NCBI GenBank assembly: GCA_963678705.1
Contig: OY783206.1
Span: 11,109,807 to 11,173,806, forward strand
Direction: 5' to 3'
Length of the DNA: 64,000 nt
Source: Panorpa germanica
Lineage: Eukaryota; Arthropoda; Insecta; Mecoptera; Panorpidae
In this document: piece by piece, positions 8,406 through 55,600 of the stretch
Layout of the letters: every line of letters begins with the position of its first letter
Position numbering within the stretch: position 1 is the stretch's first letter
Program-made: the position numbers and the translations under genes
Notes under the pieces: model-generated
What the model saw: the letters and a program-made list of their open reading frames with translations, nothing else
Told to the model about the DNA's origin: nothing
The model's database searches: none

Positions 8406-8620
8406 CTCTAATGAATATATTAAAAATTTAATGAATTATTCAGTGAACTTGTTATTAAAATAGTCATTAATTTCTTGTCGGACAATAAAATTGATATTTA
8501 AAAAATAAAAGTTATGTTGTTATACACTATCATTAACACTGTTATATAATTTATAATATAAGCTGTAATAATATAGGTTAAATAATTTAAGGTTGTAAAT
8601 TTCAATCTATGTAAATTATA

Positions 8621-9650
8621 CCGGGTGTCCCAAAAGTAGCACGTCATACTAACACCGGATGTAGACTTGCATCAGGCGCATCGAATAAGCCTAACATGAT
8701 CACATATCGTCAGTTTAAAGTTTTTTTTAAGTTCTTCATTTTTTAGCATTGTTAGTGGCAGCGTTTTCAAATTTTTCTTTCCCTAAAACCTTATTCAGAC
8801 TTTTGAATAAAAAATTAGCCAAATCGGTAGCCTTATCAACGTACTGCATTTAATTTTTATTAATATTAGAAGATTTTTAAACAACGTATTTATGAATCGT
8901 ACAACATCGTATTTATGAATTTCTATAGTAAATCTACTAAGTTTGTTTTGTTTTTATTAAGGTTTTTTTGTTAAGTGATTTTATTAAGATTTGTTAAGTG
9001 ATTCAAAATTAATTAGTGAATTATTAAAATATTTAGAAATTTGTTAAATTGAATTATAAATTATAAAAGATGTATAAAAAATGTTTGATGGTAGCTATGA
9101 CGAAAGAAAGTCAAGGCAAATAAGTAAATAAATATAAAAAAAAAACAATTGGTCTTTGTTTAGAAAAGTTAACTGGATTTCCTTTATATATTATATATAA
9201 ATATATAGTATATATTTATACCTATATTAATAAGATAGTATCAAACCATTCCAGAATCGGCATAACATTTCACGGCTTATTTCGTGTCTAGCATTTCTTT
9301 TTCACGACAGCTGGTCAAAGATGAAGTTAATGTTATTGCTGTGAATTTAAGTCAAGATTAAAATAGCAATTTGTCTTATTTTACATAAGTCATGGACAAA
9401 GTAACGCTTGTGTCGTCTTAAGTAACTATTCACGATAACGTAGAAATAAAGAAAACTAAAAGAGAGAGCTATCCCAGAAAATGCTGGCACTAACAATGTT
9501 AAAAAATGGAGAATTTAAAAAAAACTTTAAACTGGCGATATCTCGAAAACCATGCGGTTTGTACTAAGGTACTTTTTAATTAGGCGTACTCGATGCGTCT
9601 GAAGTAGGTCTACGTCCGGTGTCAGTGTGACGTGCTACTTTTGGGACACC

Positions 9651-9653
<3 letters not shown>
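8621..9653. mobile_element. Long-inverted-repeat TA-target element, 1,033 bp (Tc1/mariner-type ends)
   Basis: The termini are CCGGGTGTCCCAAAAGTAGC and CAGGGTGTCCCAAAAGTAGC read inward. TA flanks both sides (8,619-8,620 and 9,654-9,655), as for Tc1/mariner insertions. The inverted repeats run about 145-170 bp: matching blocks at TTTAAAGTTTTTTTTAA and CATTGTTAGTG recur inside both arms, separated by an indel. The middle has no transposase frame. The right end abuts a (TA)n tract. Confidence 0.8.

Positions 9654-9706
<53 letters not shown>
9654..9706. repeat. (TA)n microsatellite, 53 bp
   Basis: A pure TA run directly adjoining the right end of the long-inverted-repeat element, whose TA target site it contains. 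It probably expanded from, or received, the insertion. Confidence 0.95.
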
Positions 9707-20482: not shown

Positions 20483-21018
20483 AAGGCCCTCCGCACACGA
20501 GGCGACTGGTTGCAAACCTTAGCCCCGTATCTGCCCGAACCGAATGTCATTACAACTGTGTTGTTAGTAAAAGAACGAACGTGTTTACGAGTGAGATAAA
20601 ACACACGGCACGAACGTAACTAAAATGATTTTAAACTGGTTTTGAGCATATATTCAGCGACTAGATTTCTCGGTCGCAGGGGATTGTTGGTTTCATCAAC
20701 AGAGATGTTTACGAATACTATTGAAAAATATTTAAATACATACATACAATCAAATATAACACAACAGAATCCCCTGTTTTGCTATTGTTAAAAATTCTAT
20801 AGAGTCACGATACACGGCTCGACATGGCTCGTGCTCGTTTTCGTTGAAAACTTTGTTTCACGTTTAGTTTGCAATCACCCGACTCGTGTGCCTTTCCTCG
20901 TGCTTTATCTCACTCGCATACAAGTTCGATCTCTCACTAACAACAGTTGTAATCACATTCGCTTCCGGTAGATTCGGAACTAAGGTTTGCAACCAGTCGC
21001 ATCGTGTGCGGACGTCCT
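20483..21018. mobile_element. MITE with about 150 bp inverted repeats (CCGCACACGA ends)
   Basis: The left arm runs TAAGGCCCTCCGCACACGAG then GCGACTGGTTGCAAACCTTA; the right arm read inward runs TTAGGACGTCCGCACACGAT then GCGACTGGTTGCAAACCTTA. Similarity continues through GATTACAACTGT and GCGAGTGAGATAAA for about 150 bp. The arms are GC-richer than the AT-rich centre. No transposase. A hAT affiliation is plausible from the GC-rich ends but unproven. Confidence 0.78.
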
Positions 21019-21620: not shown

Positions 21621-24600
21621 ACTAAATTCTTTAAAGTTATAGCCACCACTCTGTACTTACATCTATTAAAAATTAATTATAAAAAAGTGGAATTCTTTTT
21701 TATACAATGAACACATAAATCTACAGAATTGAATCATATTTGAATACGATGTTGATGATAAGTGTGCTTCAATTTCAAATGTTTTGGTCAGTTGTGAAGC
21801 GAGATATTAATAATTAAAGTGCGCATATTTAACATTAGGAAGATCCACAAAGTAAAAAATGGCATTAACCTATATCTCGAGAATGGTTTTATAGTTTAAA
21901 AATAACTGATATTGTATAAGAATAAATTATGTAAATGCTGACTGTTTTTTAGATTCTTGATACCTTTTAGTTCATATTTTATTGAATGCAGGTATAAAAA
22001 TATTAACAGAAAATAGAAATTTGTTTTTCAAAACGCTACATGTTTCTAAATAATTGATATACTAATTAATGATCTATTTATAAACAAAGCTTGAACATTT
22101 CATCTGACTCCTAATATTTATTTTTTTATATTTGGAAACATGGAGTGTTAGTACAAGGTTGCAAATCGATTGTCATTTTAGTACACTGTTACCTTTTATA
22201 TCTAACTATATAACCATGAAGTAATGTTTCACCTTAAACAGCGCACTGGAGATAGCTATCGAACTTTGCAACGTTGTTTGTTGGCATGCTCTGCGCGCAG
22301 AAGCGTGCGAAGTACATCTTAATTGTACCACAGTGGTTGTTTAGCATTGTCATACTCATATTTTTCAACATATAACGCCATTAAAGCTGCAGTTTGATAC
22401 AAATTCGTACTACGAATTTATTTTCGCGAGACTTTTATAAGTGCGGCATTTGCCTTTAAATTTATTACAGAAAGATATTCACTTAAAAATCATACATATT
22501 TACAGTGGATAGATATTTATAGGTTATAGGTAGTATATAGGTTATATTTTCGTTAATTTTACATTTCATACCTTTTACCTGTAATAATACCTATTATAAA
22601 TTTCAGGTAGCCGTAAGATGGCGCTATTAAAGGTAAGAAGATTTTGTTTAACTTCCAAAGTAATGTATGTCCTTAGGTTACCTTGGGTCGATTTTTTTTG
22701 GTCGAAAGTTAAGATCATACTTCACAGGATCATTTCTGTAGTATGTCTTCACAATCTCTCTACGCAAATGTAGAGTTGATGCAGCCATGATGATGAGAAG
22801 TGGCATTGTTTCCTGAGCGTGAGGCAGGCTTCTAAGTTCCCTTGAGGATCTCTAGAAGCCATCGATGACCGTTCAGCTGAAGTCCTTTGGAGTTCAGTGA
22901 TGGAAGCAATGCTTTCTGAGTGGTGTTTTTTGAAAACATATTTATTAAAAATTTATTTATTTAAAAAATGTAAAGGTTTATTAAGGTACTTAATATACTT
23001 TTTCCGACTTAGCTTTTACTTGTTTTGTCACTGAGACATTTTTGAAAGGCTGTCACAATTTTTGCTTAACTTTTTTTAGTATTTTCTCTTCGTGTTATTT
23101 TCTAACGTTGTTTTTCCAATAATGACAAATCCATTATATCATCTTTAGACATCTTGCATTCTTATCACCAAGTCAATTTGATGAAATATTCAGTCTTCTC
23201 ACAGATCCCAAACATTCTTTAGTATTCCAGCTGTAGCTCTACATCAGCACGGCGTGGCATAGCATGGTACCACGTGATTATTCTCAAAGTAATTAGTATA
23301 TTTGAACTCTGTGGAAGTCAGTTGTTAAAACAAAGCACGTGTGAACGGCGAGGAACACAAGAACACGTGACTGCTAATTGGCTTTTGCATCTCTACAACT
23401 TCTAGTTGTGAGATCTTAGAAGTTTACAATGCTACAGTATAAGTATAACGCATTTTACTTATAAAGATATTATAATATAAGAAAAGTTCATATTTGTAAT
23501 TTTATTATTTTACTTCAATTAACTAATTATGAATTTATAACTTTCGTTTGTCTGTTGAATAATATTTATATTCCTTGACAAGATTAGATTATAAGAGCAC
23601 AGATTTTGGACAAAATATTAAAGGACGTTCCCAAGGTCAACCTACTAACCTCTTTCGGTCAGTCTCATATGCGCAGAAATAAAAAAAATATTCTGCTGCG
23701 TTGTGTATTTTAAATATGGGAACGTTGCATTCTTATATTCACCAAAACACAACTCTTTACTTTGCTTTGCTCTTACGATAGTTTAAACTTCCCGCTTAGT
23801 GCAACGTTGCAAAGTCGCAATCAAAGAAAAGTAGCTCATTAAACTATTTCTATGAAAACATGAATACCGCATGCTATAATTTTTTTTACAGTAGAATATT
23901 TGTTCTATTCTCAATTAATAACTGTCACTTTTGCAAATCCTAAGAAAGTACCATTGTTACATCATATATTATATATATATTTATATACATAATTAAAAAT
24001 AACCAATTTCCATGAAAAAAGGGTGATACGCGTTTTCAAAAACTACGTCTATAAAAAAAATCTTTTTGAAACTATTAGAATATTATTTAAAATATAAGAA
24101 CTTTGCTGTCCAAACTAAATCACGTATGCGTAAACACAAGTAAATTTGCAGTGTTGCCAAGTTTATTATTATTTTTTCAAAACAGTGAAATTGAATTGAA
24201 TGAACAAAAATTTGAATTGAATTAATATAAATTTCATATTAATTATAGGCAATTTTTTATTTATTAAACTGTAATATAAAAATATAATTTTAACAGGCTA
24301 AAAGCCATTTAATTTGGAAAATTCATTTTCAAACGTAGAGTCTTCGTACTTCGTATTACATAAATATAAACTTTTTGCATTGACGGTACCTTAACAATCT
24401 ATATCAGTCTATATCTAAAAGTTTACCAAAGCAGAAGGTATTGAAGCATTTTCTACGTATAAAAGACACTAATAAATATATATTTAAAATATTTAAAGTC
24501 TTCTTTAGCTTCTTAATCAGGGATTGGATAATTTTGAATATTATTCGAAAATATATGAAGTTGCAATGAACTTGTAAACGACACAGTGGTTGAAAGCATT

Positions 24601-34700: not shown

Positions 34701-34887
34701 GCAAATTCAACACTGGTTTTATTGAATTAACACTTTTTACATAATATTTTTGTTCATTGTTATATAGAACCTTCTCCGCCTAAGAGAAAAGATATCTTGT
34801 CTTTTGTTATCTACGGCTTCTTGCCTTGCACATTGTCTTAATGTTAATAAAATTGTTAGTTTTAATTTTCTAAAATACGTGTGTTGC
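31795..34887. other. No gene seen
   Basis: About 3 kb of AT-rich sequence. At 33,945-34,050 a short plus-strand frame (KDDCPSKYLGFTQSSLTELC, then WESLQYVTRRVIHNLI and stop) follows an AG acceptor-like TTAATATTAG. It is too short and isolated to call a gene. Nothing else stands out. Confidence 0.35.
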
Positions 34888-35526
34888 AATGGGCTTGTGT
34901 CCTATGTCTTAATTTCTATAAAAATGTACTATATGTTGATAAAGTGGGTTACTAGAACCTCAAATGTTCAATTATTTTTTAATAACTCCTTATATTTCAG
35001 GAGATATTAACAATTAAAAAAGTCATTTTGTCTCTTTAATTAGTAAAGGGATTCAATGTTGTACACATTCCAAGTGCATGTGACATCACAATCCTTGTGT
35101 AAGGTTACCAATCTTACAGCTCTTAAATCTCTGCTATATGTATTTATACATCAAAATATCAAATATTATTTACAGCTATTTCAAGGAACAATAAAATTTC
35201 AATATTATGTCTGCCGTAACTGGGTTAAATAAAATAAAAACTTATTATTCTTTGATTTGACTTGATTATTTGACTACCAACAGCTACAGAACATTACCAC
35301 AGCACTGACCTACTCAACAAATAACTGACGTTAAAATGCATTTCACGTCATACAAAACTGGCCGGCTATTTCTAGCGCTAAAACTACAATTCAAACTTCT
35401 AATTGCTATATCTCCGTCAATATTTAGATATTTAATAAAATAGACACGCCAATACACATTTATTAACATCAATTTCAATCAACAATTGAAAAATCGACCA
35501 CTAAAAAATGAGGACACAAGCCCATT
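34888..35526. mobile_element. AATGGGCTTGTGTCC-family element, full length (639 bp)
   Basis: It is in inverted orientation relative to 29,784: it starts AATGGGCTTGTGTCCTATGT and ends AGGACACAAGCCCATT. The interior is nearly the same as the copies at 29,784, 37,228 and 51,018. Confidence 0.85.
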
Positions 35527-35823
35527 GTACGTTCAACCTGTAAACGTCTAGAATATTAGTATTAAACTCACTTCCGTTATATTTCCCTACCCCCAGTTTT
35601 ATAAAAGAGATAATAGAGATTTATACAATAAAAATATATAATTAAAATAAATAAACAATCAATCAATAAACTCGCGCTCGATTATTTCTTACGCCACGTC
35701 CCTTATAGAAAACTAAACAGGTTTTTTATAAAACTTAACATACTCGTATATCTAATTTATTTTACATAATTTCATATTTTCTGGTGTCGTATATGTTTAC
35801 TACATTGATGCACAGTTCCGGGT

Positions 35824-36135
35824 TTAAAGGGGGGGGGGGGGGTTGTAGTTGAAACCAAAATACTTGCTCTAGGCAGCTAATAATTCATGGGGGCACTGAA
35901 TTTCTAAAGGCACTGCGTATACTTTTTGTTTGTTAAAAAAAATATTTTTGGGGAAATGACCCCTTTTTTGTAGTCCTTTTTGAGATTGTTCCGAAAAAAC
36001 TAACTTACTCTGTTACTATTTTTTGACTTCATTTGTGTTCGTCAATGAAGAAAGGAAACACAGTATGTAGGTGATACATAGGCGCCAATATCAAGTTCTT
36101 ATCCCGGTTCGAAAAAATCGTAAATACGTTCCTGT
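35824..36135. repeat. Dispersed repeat S, copy 2, with a poly(G) tract
   Basis: It shares its order of motifs with 29,290-29,560 (GGGGCACT, TTTTTGGGGAAATG, ATCAAGTTCTTATCCCGGTT). It begins with a run of 13-14 G at 35,829-35,842, the longest G tract in the window. Confidence 0.5.
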
Positions 36136-37227
36136 CGCTGCCTAATAAGTTAAGATATATTTAAGTACATAAGCAACTTGATTTCAACCACACCCAGAAA
36201 ATATAGCTCTCGTCATAAGTTCGAATCCGAAGACACAGTAGTCAAGCATTAATCCTCTCACACACTGTCTCATCTACAGACTCTGTCATGCTCAAAATTG
36301 CTTCCATATTTCCTTTAGATAATTTTAATGATAATTAACAAATGTAACCTCTTAGGAATCTAATTTAAAAGATTACTCTCCTAATTATAAAAAGATAATT
36401 TTTTCTTAATTAAAAATCTTTCTTGTTGCATATGTTTAAAATAAAAAGTATATCAACTATAATTATACAGTAGACTTGTGAAAAACATAAAAATAAAAAA
36501 AATTAAAAATGAAAAACTTTTTTGAAAGATAAAACTTCATAAAATATTCATAGTTCAAACAGCGGGACCGGGACCGGGATCGGGACAGCCCGGATAATGA
36601 AGTTATGAGAATTATAATAAAATTATCGCATTAGATGAATTTATTTCCATATTTTACTGCATTAGACTAGACCTAGCCTTCCTTCCCGAGCTTCCGTTGC
36701 CTTTTGGCAGACGACAGTCTATGGTAGACATCCCATTACAGTATAGCCACCATGCTTGATGCTAGGAGACGTTTGGAGAAAAATAAAAAAAAACATAAAC
36801 CATACCAGCGAAAAGAGGATTGAGTCTACGTTTGCAAACTTTATTATTAGTCAGTTGTCCTTTTTTGCAATTGTCAGTAACTAAGATGATGAAAGAGTAC
36901 AGTCAAAAAAAAATATTTTAAAAATTAAAATCTTAACCTTTCAAAAGATATTAATGAGCGTTTTTATAGCATCCAATCAAACTCAGACAGGTTAACTAAA
37001 ACCTTTGAATAATGAAATGGATTGTATAGAAAAAGATGCTGTAATCTGAGCAGCTTATACCTGAATTTATAATTCATAAAGAACCCGTCTCGTCCATGCT
37101 GTAGGTATAAATAGACACTACTCGAAAGTAGATGGCGTTGGATGTTTTAGAGCAGTGTATACTTAAATAACTTAATAAAACACCAAAAATACCGAAGAGT
37201 TTTACAACAGCTTACGAATTTGCAAAT
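36136..37227. other. No gene seen
   Basis: About 1.1 kb with no supported frame. A short GGGACCGGGACCGGGATCGG tract lies at 36,563-36,583. No inverted ends or exon-like pieces were found. Confidence 0.4.
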
Positions 37228-37787
37228 AATGGGCTTGTGTCCTCATTTTTTAGTGGTCTATTTTTCAATTGTTGATTGAAATTGATGTTAATAAATGTGT
37301 ATTGGCGTGTCTATTTTATTAAATATCTAAATGTTGACGGAGATATAGCAATTAAAAGTTTGAATTGTAGTTTTAGCGCTAGAAATGGTCGGCCATATTT
37401 GTATGTCGAAATAATCAAGTCAAAGAATAATAAGTTTTTACTTTATTTAACCCTGTTAAGGCAGACATAATATTGATATTTTATTGTTCATTGAAATAAC
37501 TGTAAATAATATTTGATATTTTGATATATAAATACATATAGCAGGGATTTATGAGCTGTAAGGTTGGTAACCTTACACAAGGATTGTGATGTCACATGCA
37601 CTTGGAATGTCTACAACGTTGAATCCCTTTAATAATTAAAGAGACAAAATGACTTTTTTAATTGTTAATATCTCTTAACATATAAGGAGTTATTAAAAAA
37701 TAATTGAACATTTGAGGTTTTAGTAACCCACTTTGTCAATATATAGTACACTTTTATAGAAATTAAGGCATAGGACACAAGCCCATT
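37228..37787. mobile_element. AATGGGCTTGTGTCC-family element (560 bp, internal deletion)
   Basis: Both ends are intact (AATGGGCTTGTGTCCTCATT; AGGACACAAGCCCATT). A stretch after GGCCATATTTGTATG is missing relative to 29,784. A weak match to repeat R begins just after it. Confidence 0.85.
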
Positions 37788-38474
37788 GGACAATACACAC
37801 ACGATAGCCCGCCACAGAAAATTAAATATATACTACACAGGCACAAGAAGTACCGCAAATACACATATTGTAATAATAAATAAAAATACCGTATATGAAT
37901 AACACTTGTCAAGCTATTGCTTTACTTAAACGGTATTTTCCCCAATAAAAAGCAATGCTTTATCAACATACGAAATTCAGTATTTTCGATTTTTAAAATT
38001 ATAAAAGCAGCATCACTAAAACCAGTATAACTTGTAAAGTAATGGTCAGCATATAATGAAATTTTCACGCGTATCATTTGAAGGTTTATACTATCTAAAT
38101 ATGGTTTTGTTATAGTGGCACCATCTATATGTCATCCGACGAACTTATTGAGATTTATGTTGAGTGACAAGCTATAGTCCAAATCACGATAGTTCGGCGG
38201 CGACTTATACTTAAAAGAGGTTATAAGAGCGGTATAAATCTATAATACGATAATGAATTTTATCTTATTCGTTTCTATATACATTATAGAAAAATAAGTG
38301 AGTCAGTGCTTCTTAGTTATATCGGCAGTTTATACCCCACAACTAGTTTTAAGTACGAGTCGCCGTCAAACTCTTGTAATTTGAACTGTAATTTATATAT
38401 GTTACATATATAAATTAGTTTGTGAACCATGTCTCAATTACTACAACACTTTAATACCAAATAAAAATGCTATA

Positions 38475-44893: not shown

Positions 44894-45079
44894 GTAATTT
44901 GTTATTTCATTTAAAATTTTATTTTATTTATATAGTTCTTTTTAGAGTGTACTCTTAACAATAGGTGCAATATTAAAAATATTTCTTTCATTTAATTTAC
45001 AAAACAAAAAATGTTTTCAATTTTCTTTCACAATTTGGAAATTCTTTATTTGATTTTTAAATTAGTTACTACATAAAAA

Positions 45080-45540
45080 ATTTAAGAATTTTAGCAAGAG
45101 TATAACCTTCTTTCGTTTCAAGAAATGAGGAAAATCCTATTTTTACTAAAATTCAAATACAACGTTTTTATCAATTTTAACAAGAGTATAACCTATCATC
45201 TCAAGAAATGGAGAAAATCTTTTTTTATTTAAAATAAAAATACTGAAAATTTATCAATTTTAACCTTCTACCATCTGAAAAAATGAAGAAAACCTTATTT
45301 CAGCTAAAATTAAAAACACAATAAATTTATCAAATTTAACAAGAGAATAACCTTCTGTCATCTCAAGAAATGGAGAAAATCTTATATTTGATAAAATTAA
45401 AAATTCAATATTGTATATGATTTTAGAGTATAACCTTCTTTCATCTCAAGAAATGGAAAAAATCCTATTTTTGCTAAAATTCAAAATACAACATTTTTAT
45501 CAATTTTAGCAAGAGTATAACATTCTCTCATCGGATTTTC
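45080..45540 (+). repeat. Degenerate 87 bp tandem repeats (type A), first block
   Basis: About five worn units with the hallmarks AACAAGAGTATAACCTTC, TCATCTCAAGAAATGGAGAA and TTTTTGCTAAAATTCAAAAT. The same unit recurs at 46,855-47,395 and 53,525-53,800. No coding frame. Confidence 0.8.
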
Positions 45541-45789
45541 CCCTGAATTTCCTGAGAACCCGTAATTTTGGATAAACTATAAAAAAATTTCCTACTTTTT
45601 GCTGTATAACTCATAATTAATTTTAACAAAAACGGTTAAATTTAATTGTTAATTGGTGAATAAAAATGGTATAAGAATGTAATATTTTTTCCGCCAATTA
45701 ATTGTTATATTTAGTCTGTAAATATTGTCAGAAAATAATAGCAAAATACATGATTTTCTTGTACTGTAAATTTTGCTCGTAAATAATGT

Positions 45790-46510
45790 TGCCACTCTGT
45801 CAGGCGCAATGATGTAGAAATTTTATTAAGTTCATTTTTTCTAATTTTTTTTCATTCTTTGAAATATTTTGTAACAGTTATATTCCTTATGCTCTAAAAT
45901 AAAATACTGCATCATTAGATTTTAAATACCTACGCGATATTGGTTTTTATCCGACCTTTTTTATTTTCATGGACATTTATAAAAAAAAATTAAAATCCAT
46001 TTTCTTAATTTTTTTTGATGCAGTTATGTTCGTTATCTTCTAAAATAAGAAACTGCTTCATTAGGTTTTAAATATCTACGCGATTCTGGCTTTTAAGCGA
46101 CCTTTTTTATTTTCATGGACATATTTAAAAAAAGATTAAAATTAATTTTCTTGAAAATTGTTGATGCAGTTATGTTCCTTATGCTCTAAATTAAAAAATT
46201 GCATCATTAGATTTTAAATACCTACGCGATTTTAGGTTTTATGCGACCATTTTTAAATCCATGGACATTTTTTTTCTAAAATTATTTTCTGATTCTTTGG
46301 AATAATTTGATGCAGTTATGTTCGTTATGCTCTAAAATAAAAAACTCCATCATTAGATTTTAAATACCTACGCGATTTTGGCTTTTAATCGTCCTTTTTT
46401 ATTTTCATGGACATTTTATTCAAAAAGAAAAAATTACATTTTCTTGAATTTTTTTGATGCAGTTATGTTCGTTATGCTTTAAAATAAAAAACTGCATCAT
46501 TAGATTTTAA
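45790..46510 (+). repeat. About 145 bp tandem repeats (type B)
   Basis: About five units, each with TGATGCAGTTATGTTCGTTA, then TGCATCATTAGATTTTAAAT, ACCTACGCGATTTTGGCTTT and TTATTTTCATGGACATTT. The block is inserted between the two type A blocks. Not seen elsewhere in the window. Confidence 0.82.
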
Positions 46511-46854
46511 ATATCTATGCAGAAACTCAAAAAATTGCATTGCTCTTAAAATCATAAAAGTGAACCTTTTCATCATTTTTAACAAGATTATAGTCTTCTT
46601 TCATTGCACACTCCGATAATGAAATTTAATATATTGATATATCATAAACTAAAATACTTATTTAAAAATGAATTATAAATTTGAAATCAGCATTCAAAAT
46701 TAAGTTAAAATCCGTTATAAAATGACGTATATTTTTCTTAAATTTTTATGAAAAATGAGAAGGTTATACTCTTCTTACTTTTCATAAAAATTGAAAAAAA
46801 ATATATCTCATTTTTATAACGGTTTGTTAAAACTAAAAAAACTACATTTAAAAA

Positions 46855-47480
46855 AATAACATTGTTATCAATTTTAACAAGAGTATAACCTTCTTTCATC
46901 ACAAGAAATTGGAGAAAATCCTATTTTTGCTAAAATTCAAAATACAACATTTTTATCAATTTTAACAAGAGTATAACCTTCTTTCATCACAAGAAATGTA
47001 GAAAATCTTAATTTTGCTAAAATTAAAAAAACAACATTTTTATCAATTTTAATAAGAGTATAACCTGCTATCATCGCAAAAAATGGAGAAAATCATATTT
47101 TAACTAATATTAAAAAAACAACATTTTATCAATGTTAACAAGAGTACAACCTTCTATCATCACAAGAAATCGAGAGAATCTTATCTCTGCTTAAATTCAA
47201 AATACAACATTTTATCAATTTTAACAAGAGTATAACCTTCTTTCACCTCAAGAAATGGAGTAAATCTTATTTTTGCTAAAATTCAAAATACAACATTTTT
47301 ATCAATTTTAACAAGAGTATAACCTTCTTTCATCTCAAGAAATGGAGAAAATCTAATTTTTGCTAAAATTAAAAATACAGCATATTTATCATTTTTAGAT
47401 TTGCTTGTGTGTATAAATAGTAGCATGTAAATCAGGCGTTGTAAAATTAACTGCTAGTGTCATCTGTAAAACTAATATTT
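46855..47480 (+). repeat. 87 bp tandem repeats (type A), second block, plus shared tail
   Basis: Six to seven better-kept type A units end at about 47,395. They are followed by a single-copy tail (GATTTGCTTGTGTGTATAAA, TAGTAGCATGTAAATCAGGC). The same tail follows the type A units at 53,806-53,880, so the array and tail moved as one unit. Confidence 0.85.
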
Positions 47481-48129
47481 AACTGTGGTTGTTTTGTCTA
47501 CTATCCAAAAGATGGCGCAATTTTGGTTCAACTATTTACTAAGTATTGTTGTTACATAAATCAATTTAATAATATTAAAAGTAATTGAATTAAATAATAT
47601 ACAATAAATAATTTATTAAGTTGTTCAGAATTACAAATATTTAGTGTTATAAACTTTTGAATATATCTGTTTCTTTTTTAATAATGTGCTAATACAAATG
47701 GTGGAGTAGGTGTTGCATATTATCCAGGCGTTTCTCAATTCAATTTTTTTGGTTTATTAAAAACAAGATAAGATTTATATCTAAGTTTATAGAACATAGT
47801 ACAAAATTTGGTATAAAGTGTTGAAATTATTGGGTAGAAATGTATGTATGTATAACTTATGAAACTTGAAAATTTAAAAATTAAACTAAACTTTTGAAAT
47901 TTTCAAAATAAAATTTAGGCAGTCTTCAAAAGACAATTAGAAGTAAAATACTTGATACAAATAATATTGGGTTGTTAATTTGAAAGAAATTTATTATTGA
48001 AAATTTTTAAAATAAATTTAAAAAAAATTGAATCAAGTCTTCATAAAAATTTTATTTTCCTGTCAATTGGTTTTAAATTTATTCTGAAATAAATATATAT
48101 TTTTTATACTATTTTTAAAATTCGTTATA
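47481..48129. other. No gene seen; upstream region of the F-box gene
   Basis: AT-rich sequence with no supported frame. No clear TATA box was found within 100 bases of the F-box ATG; the gene may use a TATA-less promoter. Confidence 0.4.
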
Positions 48130-52649: not shown

Positions 52650-55600
52650 TTATTTAGCTTTCTTTTTTTCTGCAGATTTTGGTGGTGGCGGTGGTGGTGG
52701 TTCAGGCACTGGTATTTTATTGCCTTCACCAATTAATAAAAACTTTAAATCAGTTCCAAATTTATCAATATTCATCAGCCAGACAGCTCTATTTTTTCCC
52801 TCGTAACATGGAGTAAAACTAAAAAATATATAATTCAAAATTGAAAACCGAGCGCCATCTCTGAGAGAGAAGTGGTTCATGTCTCTGCTATTACCTAAAC
52901 TTGACAGTTGAACGCCTTCTAGCAGCTACTTTCTGTCCTTGTGTCAAGCATTTGAAAGTACACATACCAGGTTCTGAAGTTTCAACTTCATTAGTTGCAG
53001 TAACATTAGGCACATTTGTTTCTTCTTCTTCTTCCTCCGTCTCCGCTGTCAAACAATAACATTCCATCCAATCCACATAGTAATCCTCGTAAGTGCAGTT
53101 ATATATATCAAAGGTTCTTGAAAAATAAGTTGCCGTTATAAAGAGTTTCTGAAACTAGATCATTAAAGAGACTAAAAATACACACTTAATTCCAGTTTCT
53201 CCAATATCCATAGGATCAAACTCAATAACGCGTAGCGTGGAATACACCTGGTCTTCCGTGTCGTAATAGATATCTGGAATGTCCAGCAGACAGTAAGGAT
53301 CCGTTGCAACCCCTTCCATGATGACGTAGTTACTAGGTAGCTAAAATGTAAGAAGAGTAAATAAAACCCTTATCATTATATTAGACGGCACATTAAGGTC
53401 AAACGATACTTGGCCATTTTTGACTCGCGAAATATAGATGGCGATACTATGCAGCAGGTTAAATATTATCAAAAATAACCATGTTTTTTTATGTTTAAAT
53501 CGTTTTATGTAAGTAACTATAAACTGTAAATTTATAAATTTTAACAAGAAACTAACCTTCTTTCATCACAAAAAATGGAGAAAATCTCATTTTAGCCAAA
53601 ATTAAAAATACTGTAAATTTATCAATTTTGACAAGAGTATAACCTTCTTTCATCACAAGAAATGCAGAAAATCTTATTTTTGCTAAAATTAAAAATTCAA
53701 CATTTTTATCATTTTTAACAAGAGTATAACCTTCTTTCATCTCAAGAAATGGAGAAAATCTAATTTTTGTTAAAATTAAAAATAGAGCATATTCATCAAT
53801 TTTAGATTTGCTGGTGTGTATAAATAGTAGCATATAAATCAGGCGTTGTAAAATTAGTTGCTAGTGTGATCTGTTAAACTAATATATAACTGGTTTATGT
53901 AAGTAACTATAAACGTGAATGAAAATCTAAAGATGCAATTAGTTAGATGAATAACGTATCTACATTTTAAGCTTTCTTCCACTGACTTTTAATGAGTTGG
54001 AACAGCTATAACTTTTGAAAATTAATATCGCTATATTTTCTAGTTAAATTCCAATTTTTATATTTTTATTCTATATATATTTTTAAGTCTTAAGCGTAAG
54101 TTTGAAAACCATAATAAAGGTTATAAAATTTATGACAAACCCTTAAAATGTAGATACGTTATTCATCTAACTAATTGCAGCTTTAGATTTTGATTCGCGT
54201 TTATAGTTACTTACATAAAACGATTTAAACATAAAAAACATGATTTTTTTGATAATATTTAACCTGCTGTATAGTATCGCTATCTATATTCCGCGAGTCA
54301 AAAATAGCCAAATATCGTTCACCTTAAATCACGTTACCTGATCCTCGTCAATGTTATCTACCCTAATACACAACCCCCTGGAATACGTGCCGGTTCTATT
54401 CGGCTGGAAAACCACTGTAACAGTGGCGGTGGTACCTGGGTCAACTTGATCATCAAGTGGATAGACGTAGAAAGCTTCTCGAGCTGTGATGATGGGATAC
54501 TCCTGCGATTTGACACTAAATATGCTATCTTCAGATGTTGGTGGTTTGTTTACCAACGATTTAATATTTGGATCTAAAAAAATCAATTCCATTATTAAAA
54601 TGTTGAAGAAAATATTCACCAAAGTCAATAAAGGTTGTACCTGCTTCATCAAGTTCAACTATATCATACAGCGGACCACGTTTCTTTGGTGGAACATCTA
54701 TTCCGTTTTCGCTAGATTCGTCAGTTAGTGGCACTTTAGCATCTTCAACTTTATTTATACTTTCTTCAGATTCTACAGGTTTTGGTTTATATTTATCACA
54801 TATATCACCTGATGATGAAGACATCTCCAGCGACGCTTCTTCAAGTACGCTCTGTGAATCATAGAACATAATTAAATAGGCTTGTGTCCTCATTTTTTTG
54901 TGGTCGAGTTTTCAATTATTGATTGAAATTGATGTTAATAAATGTGTATTAGCGTGCCTATTTTATTAAATATCTAAATGTTGACGGAGATATAGCAGTT
55001 AAAAATTTGAATTGTAGTTTTAGCGCTAGAAATGGTCGTGAAATGCATTTTAACGTCAGTTATTTGTTGATTTGGTCAGTGCTGTGGTAATGTTTTGTAG
55101 CTGTTGGTAGTCGAAATAATCAAGTCAAGTCAAAAAATAATAAGTGTTTATTTTATTTAACCCTGTATTTAACAGCCCATATAATATTGAAATTTCATTG
55201 TTCTTCGAAATAGCTGTAAATAATATATTTTGATATATAAATACATATAGCAGAGATTTATGAGCTGTAAGGTTGGTAACCTGTAAACTTGTCAGGGTTC
55301 TGTCAAGAATATATCTCTTTTACGCTCTCTTGTATAAAAGAGATAGCAACTAGCGGTTGTGAGGTCACATGCATTTGTTGTACAACGTTGAATCCCTTTA
55401 ATAATTAAAGAGACAAAATGACTTTTATGCTACACAATGTAAATACAATCTTAGGCTAAAGCATGTAATATTAAATTACCTCTTCTTCTGATATTATCGG
55501 CCTTGGTTTACAATAAGACTCCTCAGTCAAGTTCAATTTGTACCGTAGAGGAACGTTGCCCGTGTTGTTAAAGGTAAATGTATAGATCCTTCTCTAAAAA

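Follow-up and report, generated by a model that had tools for sequence, protein, structure and literature searches.

A TTAA-inserted MITE copy in Panorpa germanica with a left arm split by a secondary insert

The window analysed here is a 64,000-nucleotide stretch of the Panorpa germanica genome (contig OY783206.1, forward strand), and it contains a 927-bp element flanked by TTAA. We regard it as an unremarkable copy from a large, Kolobok-like MITE family with TTAA targets, carrying a nested insertion that is absent from the other copies fetched. Its two stems are a single pair of inverted arms (185/182 bp) whose left arm has been split. A MITE of about 537 bp took up a secondary insert of 369 bp, because the arms join once the insert is taken out, 21 bp are duplicated at its edges, and the internal array is missing from 20/20 other complete copies. 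The nested shape looks like an accident in one copy, not a novel element type. The features are as follows, in window positions.

53341–54337, minus strand: predicted host intron holding the element (splice sites by eye)
53393–53396, no strand: left TTAA target duplication, read directly
53397–53524, plus strand: left inverted arm, outer part (128 bp), beginning GGTCAAACG; family form GGTGAAACGATACTTGGC
53504–53524, plus strand: first copy of the 21-bp duplication TTTATGTAAGTAACTATAAAC, an exact repeat
53525–53893, plus strand: secondary insert, 369 bp long, made up of an 87-bp array (about 3.2 units) and a unique tail
53804–53892, plus strand: tail of the insert, from about 53814 on part of another dispersed repeat
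53894–53914, plus strand: second copy of the 21-bp duplication, an exact repeat of 53504–53524
53915–53971, plus strand: inner left arm, displaced (the nested stem of the earlier note)
53972–54141, plus strand: loop separating the arms, 170 bp
54142–54323, minus strand: right inverted arm, unbroken, 182 bp
54324–54327, no strand: right TTAA target duplication, read directly
46842–47485, plus strand: 87-bp array and tail without inverted arms, the best full-length match of the insert (89%)

The layout given in the earlier note (exact TTAA flanks, long inverted ends, three 87-bp tandem units and an inner stem of about 80 bp) was reproduced in each respect. TTAA was read at 53393–53396 and 54324–54327. 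The inverted ends align over 123 bp at 93% with gaps, the ungapped arms being 87 and 40 nt, and this alignment scores 202, whereas the highest of 200 dinucleotide shuffles reached 44. The array occupies 53528–53804 with a period of 87, 3.2 copies and 85% matches, and the inner stem pairs 53894–53971 with 54142–54219 (78 nt, 96% complementary). With TTAA on both sides, the whole 927 bp folds as a stem plus a side hairpin.

The side hairpin resolves into the main stem once the direct repeat is considered. The last 21 bp of the outer left arm, on its inner side, recur without mismatch at the start of the inner left arm (53504–53524 = 53894–53914); the probability of such an exact repeat arising somewhere in the element is about 8e-6. 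When 53525–53914 is left out, a left arm of 185 bp pairs continuously with the 182 bp on the right, and removal of these 390 bp lifts the alignment score of 202 to 301. When deletions of 180 different lengths were made from 53525 on, pairing was best at exactly 390 bp; the top score was common to 22 start positions, 53504–53525, which is the span of the 21-bp repeat. Two stems sharing a short direct repeat are a sign of one split arm.

The element was used to search the genome to which the window belongs, 464 Mb in 249 contigs, where the best 40 of 3,145 first-look candidates were scored and 30 loci taken. Arms are present in 28/30 loci, counting the present copy, and 2/30 hold the 87-bp array only. 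An end probe requiring at least 14 of 20 bases located 49 ends in the 30 loci. TTAA lies directly outside 42/49 of these by script, and outside 44/49 after direct reading of the right ends of L001 and L028; T stands at −4 in 46/49 ends and A at −1 in 47/49. Besides the present copy, 20 loci are complete elements of 486–645 bp, with TTAA on both sides in 15 and on one side only in 5, and the array occurs in none of them. Where their arm aligns, 18/20 run through the split point, while L016 is about 12 nt short beside it and in L018 a deletion of about 42 nt spans it. Some longer family copies (e.g. L021, L023) have about 92 bp of the loop inverted as well. The split junctions (up to 3 mismatches) were found in 0/37 other family loci fetched, a part of the family made up of the best matches of the element search and ten stretches at or near listed ends; the unsplit sequence (up to 4 mismatches) is present in 32/37, and 5/37 are without that part.

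Across the whole genome, allowing up to 3 mismatches, TTAAGGTGAAACGATACTTGGC was matched 1485 times forward and 1468 times in reverse (2,953), compared with 1 and 0 for the reversed control. A genome search with the terminus had been set as a check by the earlier note, and it yielded many copies with the same ends and TTAA flanks. The family is a high-copy non-coding MITE with long inverted arms, beginning GG and ending CC, and precise insertion at TTAA. Its members are short, have inverted ends, are present in high copy and carry a target duplication; their non-coding nature is judged from the short length. Any annotation of this genome's repeats will meet it as a large TTAA MITE family, with about 3,000 recognisable ends. 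Nested insertion into an arm extends beyond the present copy, because the arm of L071 (C1:21374008-21374905) is also split, near base 152, by an insert of about 214 bp that has inverted ends and carries TATAGT at each edge; by its look, that insert is another MITE.

Empty sites were sought by joining the flanks of ten copies (L001–L010), a search in which the best 40 of 3,388 first-look candidates were scored and 70 matches returned. The L007 junction is crossed by 40/70 matches, the other 30 being short second pieces of the same repeat: L007 sits in another abundant repeat, and all 40 candidate empty sites belong to it. All five of the sites fetched from these 40 contain a single TTAA at the junction, so that the empty-site check set by the earlier note was borne out for one copy, L007. 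For the present copy the indication is indirect: removal of the element and one TTAA leaves a minus-strand intron of 66 nt (GTAACG..TTTTAG, thus with GT..AG ends, splice sites by eye) with two open exon frames on either side. Separately, L007 and L011 apparently occupy one TTAA of the same abundant repeat in opposite orientations, which may reflect either two insertions at one site or a repeat that spread with its passenger. A by-eye reading also suggests that the following host-gene intron may be as short as about 37 nt (GTGTGTATTTTT..TTTCAG, window 53100–53200, minus strand).

The superfamily was assessed from target and termini. Passages of PMC9587614 give Kolobok elements a TTAA duplication and 5'-RR..YY-3' termini, and KolobokP inverted repeats of 11–18 bp. 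In the present family TTAA is found at 44/49 ends and at 5/5 fetched L007 empty sites, and GG..CC occurs here and in most ends listed, with a one-base deviation in a few (e.g. L003, L009, L017, L019, L020). We use 'Kolobok-like' because of the TTAA and the RR..YY end rule alone; from these sequence features, the family would most likely have been moved in trans by a Kolobok-type transposase. The earlier note had suggested a non-autonomous piggyBac or Kolobok lineage. Its non-autonomous TTAA element stands, with ends at 53397 and 54323 that the copies share, and GG..CC fits Kolobok; piggyBac is disfavoured by the different termini.

It is unlikely, though it retains some weight, that the family belongs to another superfamily, namely piggyBac, Sola3, or a TA-inserting Tc1/mariner group with coincidental TTAA. 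Sola3 also uses a TTAA duplication, as does piggyBac, and this single copy could be read as T[TA]AGGT..ACCT[TA]A; insect MITE surveys list several such superfamilies. A bare TA duplication of the Tc1/mariner kind was rejected on T at −4 in 46/49 ends and A at −1 in 47/49. The family shares TTAA with piggyBac, but the piggyBac termini cited in a paper on coral MITEs are CC[C/T]T with short inverted repeats of 12–19 bp, whereas here the termini are GG..CC and the arms 182–185 bp. The piggyBac elements of this genome itself differ too. Among 123 matches to PF13843 (piggyBac), seven loci were fetched: 4/7 have TTAA-flanked CCCATTWTCTACC ends, unlike GG..CC, and at 3/7 no TTAA-flanked end pair was found. 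The MITE end was found at 0/7 of these loci, where the best match is 11–13 of 18 bases. Membership in piggyBac was rejected on the termini, which depart both from CC[C/T]T and from CCCATTWTCTACC.

An autonomous partner with the MITE ends, which for Kolobok would encode a DDD/E + C/DxxH transposase, was not found at the 7 piggyBac loci, at 6 THAP loci or in ten stretches at listed ends. The THAP domain has 127 matches in the genome, and of the six loci followed, 2/6 are a P element, in copies 99.6% alike over 3.5 kb, and the other four carry frames; MITE ends were found at 0/6, with best matches of 11–12 of 18. The ten stretches at listed ends contain no recognised transposase frame (frames above 65 aa in 6/10, read without a family search). 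Virus contigs scanned for the MITE end and for the 87-bp unit gave 0 matches each.

These searches also brought up other transposons. Five piggyBac copies on C5 (L073–L077) are 96–99.5% alike, with CCCATTWTCTACC ends in 4/5, and are probably recent. The P element at L078 and L079 has a 910-aa stop-free frame in two copies that are 99.6% alike. Many THAP matches of the same short form occur on most chromosomes, and the P element has probably expanded recently.

We then consider where the 369-bp insert came from. A genome search with its tail gave 33 candidates, 33/33 of which were scored. The junction between array and tail occurs at 2/33 scored places: the element itself and C3:11157189-11157291, which is window 47383–47485, 6 kb away. 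The other 31 tail matches start at query base 6–36; at L034, the one starting at 6, the sequence upstream is a different one. For the last unit of the insert, the closest counterpart in the 47-kb array is again the last unit (96.6%). Of eight registers compared, the one in which the tails line up scores best (88.5%), and over its whole length the insert is 89% like the 47-kb locus. The insert is probably a patch copied from the 46842–47485 locus, and copying is suggested because the array–tail junction is found only here and at 47383–47485 among the 33 places. Against direct copying stand the likeness of only 89% and the order of units, which is not followed: insert units 1 and 2 match best k6 (the last) and k2 (the second) of the 47-kb array. 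This array extends beyond the content of the insert.

In a different account, which we consider improbable, the insert was itself mobile, or was a transcript placed by a LINE enzyme, and the 21 bp are its target duplication. LINE enzymes can make duplications of this length, and the start of the insert falls within a repeat unit, as expected of a 5'-truncated copy. By eye, however, no poly(A), simple tail or TTTT/A site is present at 53525, at 53893 or at the edges of the duplication. Both edges of the insert lie within other repeats, because the tail family runs on beyond the right edge in many printed copies and at the 47-kb locus. In the flanks compared, the windows around the 45- and 47-kb arrays have no shared stretch of at least 8 bp, and for the C1 array the longest one measures 9 bp. 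Passages of PMC5110952 divide human templated insertions into LINE-made ones, with duplications and poly(A), and repair patches, with neither. A duplication of at least 5 bp, as in class 1, the LINE-made one, is present here (21 bp), whereas poly(A) and TTTT/A are not. Edges in repeats, unshared flanks and absent poly(A) led us to reject a free-standing mobile element or a LINE insertion as first choice.

The repeats that resemble the insert have an organisation of their own. The 87-bp arrays (window 45078–47485) adjoin 146-bp tandem units (45859–46517, 4.5 copies), and at L030 (C1:21.285 Mb) an 87-bp array again lies beside 146-bp units, on the other strand and with a shared spacer; arrays and units may be parts of one larger repeat. 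The tail segment 53814–53892 is part of a repeat that is dispersed in low copy number (L033–L060) and measures perhaps 250 bp; by eye, its ends resemble inverted AAGTAAATGTTTTTGG and its core, TATATATAG...CAGGCGTTGTAAAATT, is conserved. Some of its copies on C7 form inverted pairs about 4.8 kb apart.

We regard it as highly probable that a TTAA/Kolobok-type MITE copy settled in the intron and that its left arm was later patched from the 47-kb repeat locus. The MITE would first have inserted at a TTAA within an otherwise 66-nt intron. Later, the 369-bp patch would have entered the left arm, copied in the same orientation from 46842–47485, with 21 bp of the arm duplicated during patching. This could have happened at a staggered break filled in with a DNA patch, or through a template switch where the hairpin stalled replication, the 21 bp being re-copied. 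Direction of copying and mechanism are what we infer from the present arrangement; fill-in and template switch leave the same trace in one copy, and a lost third locus could be the source. More tentatively, and with rather more doubt than confidence, palindromic MITE arms may be fragile sites at which a stalled hairpin led to a switch to the repeat 6 kb away, with a 21-bp overlap. If such events recur in the family, hairpin MITEs would act as landing pads that scatter immobile satellite fragments. If the patch reading is true, this copy clearly illustrates, at a local scale, how a transposon arm can capture a piece of satellite.

The earlier note saw in a foldback architecture with a TTAA target a possible undescribed lineage. 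In a true foldback-type lineage, array and nested stem would belong to the mobile unit, and although TTAA brackets all 927 bp and these fold into a stem with a side hairpin, we hold this to be very improbable and reject a foldback element of the Galileo/FB/Tetris type, since the array is in 0/20 other complete copies where tandem repeats in the arms should be a family trait, the split junctions are in 0/37 other fetched family loci, the array–tail junction is at 2/33 scored places, one of them armless, and the duplication is TTAA only in place of some 7–10 bp. A would-be new foldback lineage is removed, and a nested insertion can imitate one.

Elsewhere in the window, a U3 small nucleolar RNA lies at 22711–22924 on the plus strand (149 bits, full model length), the sole Rfam match in the window. 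Pfam searches with five window ORFs gave weak matches in 3/5 (HYDIN-like Ig / motile sperm, LRR and F-box), below the curated cut-offs, and no match for the other two; a PDB search with one neighbouring exon gave 0 matches. Three further inverted structures were observed. A large inverted repeat at 34887–37788 has arms of 374 and 181 nt at 94–96% and spans 2.9 kb in all; sequence related to it lies near 30.3 kb. An inverted pair at 8617–9657 has ends TACAGGGTGTCCCAAAAGTAGCACGTCA and adjoins a long TA run, and another at 20484–21018 has arms of 76 and 46 nt with GC-rich ends.

In the literature on the MITE end sequence and on nested TTAA MITEs in insects, nothing relevant was found. The closest known systems compare as follows. 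The Kolobok superfamily is alike in its TTAA duplication and 5'-RR..YY-3' termini; it differs in that the arms here are far longer than the 11–18 bp of KolobokP, and a transposase was not found in the loci examined. Long inverted arms, with tandem repeats within an arm, are shared with the foldback elements Tetris and Galileo. Galileo duplications are 7 bp long. In Drosophila Tetris, as described in passages of PMC4079207, tandem repeats in the arms are a family trait, the duplications are 8–10 bp and the arms reach 1.7 kb, which sets it apart from the present copy.

The coral element CMITE-IN is a piggyBac-type TTAA composite formed by insertion according to passages of PMC2872659, and direct repeats border its inserted part. 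In that case the incoming element was itself a TTAA MITE, its target was a TTAA and the direct repeats were older than the insertion, whereas here a non-MITE fragment lies in an arm and 21 bp were duplicated. Human templated sequence insertions (TSIPs) likewise hold a fragment copied from elsewhere with arbitrary ends, but a 21-bp duplication without poly(A) corresponds to neither human class, and the likely source here is 6 kb away. T2-MITE/Xmix of Xenopus, a Kolobok-type group, resembles the present family in TTAA, in a purine-rich AGGRR end within the inverted repeat, in being non-autonomous and in high copy number. It also has an internal tandem repeat within a TTAA MITE; in passages of PMC6004289, Xmix with Xstir is such an element, so that the combination of a TTAA MITE with an internal tandem repeat has been published before. 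The repeat is a family trait of Xmix, whereas here it marks one copy among those fetched and arrived by secondary insertion.
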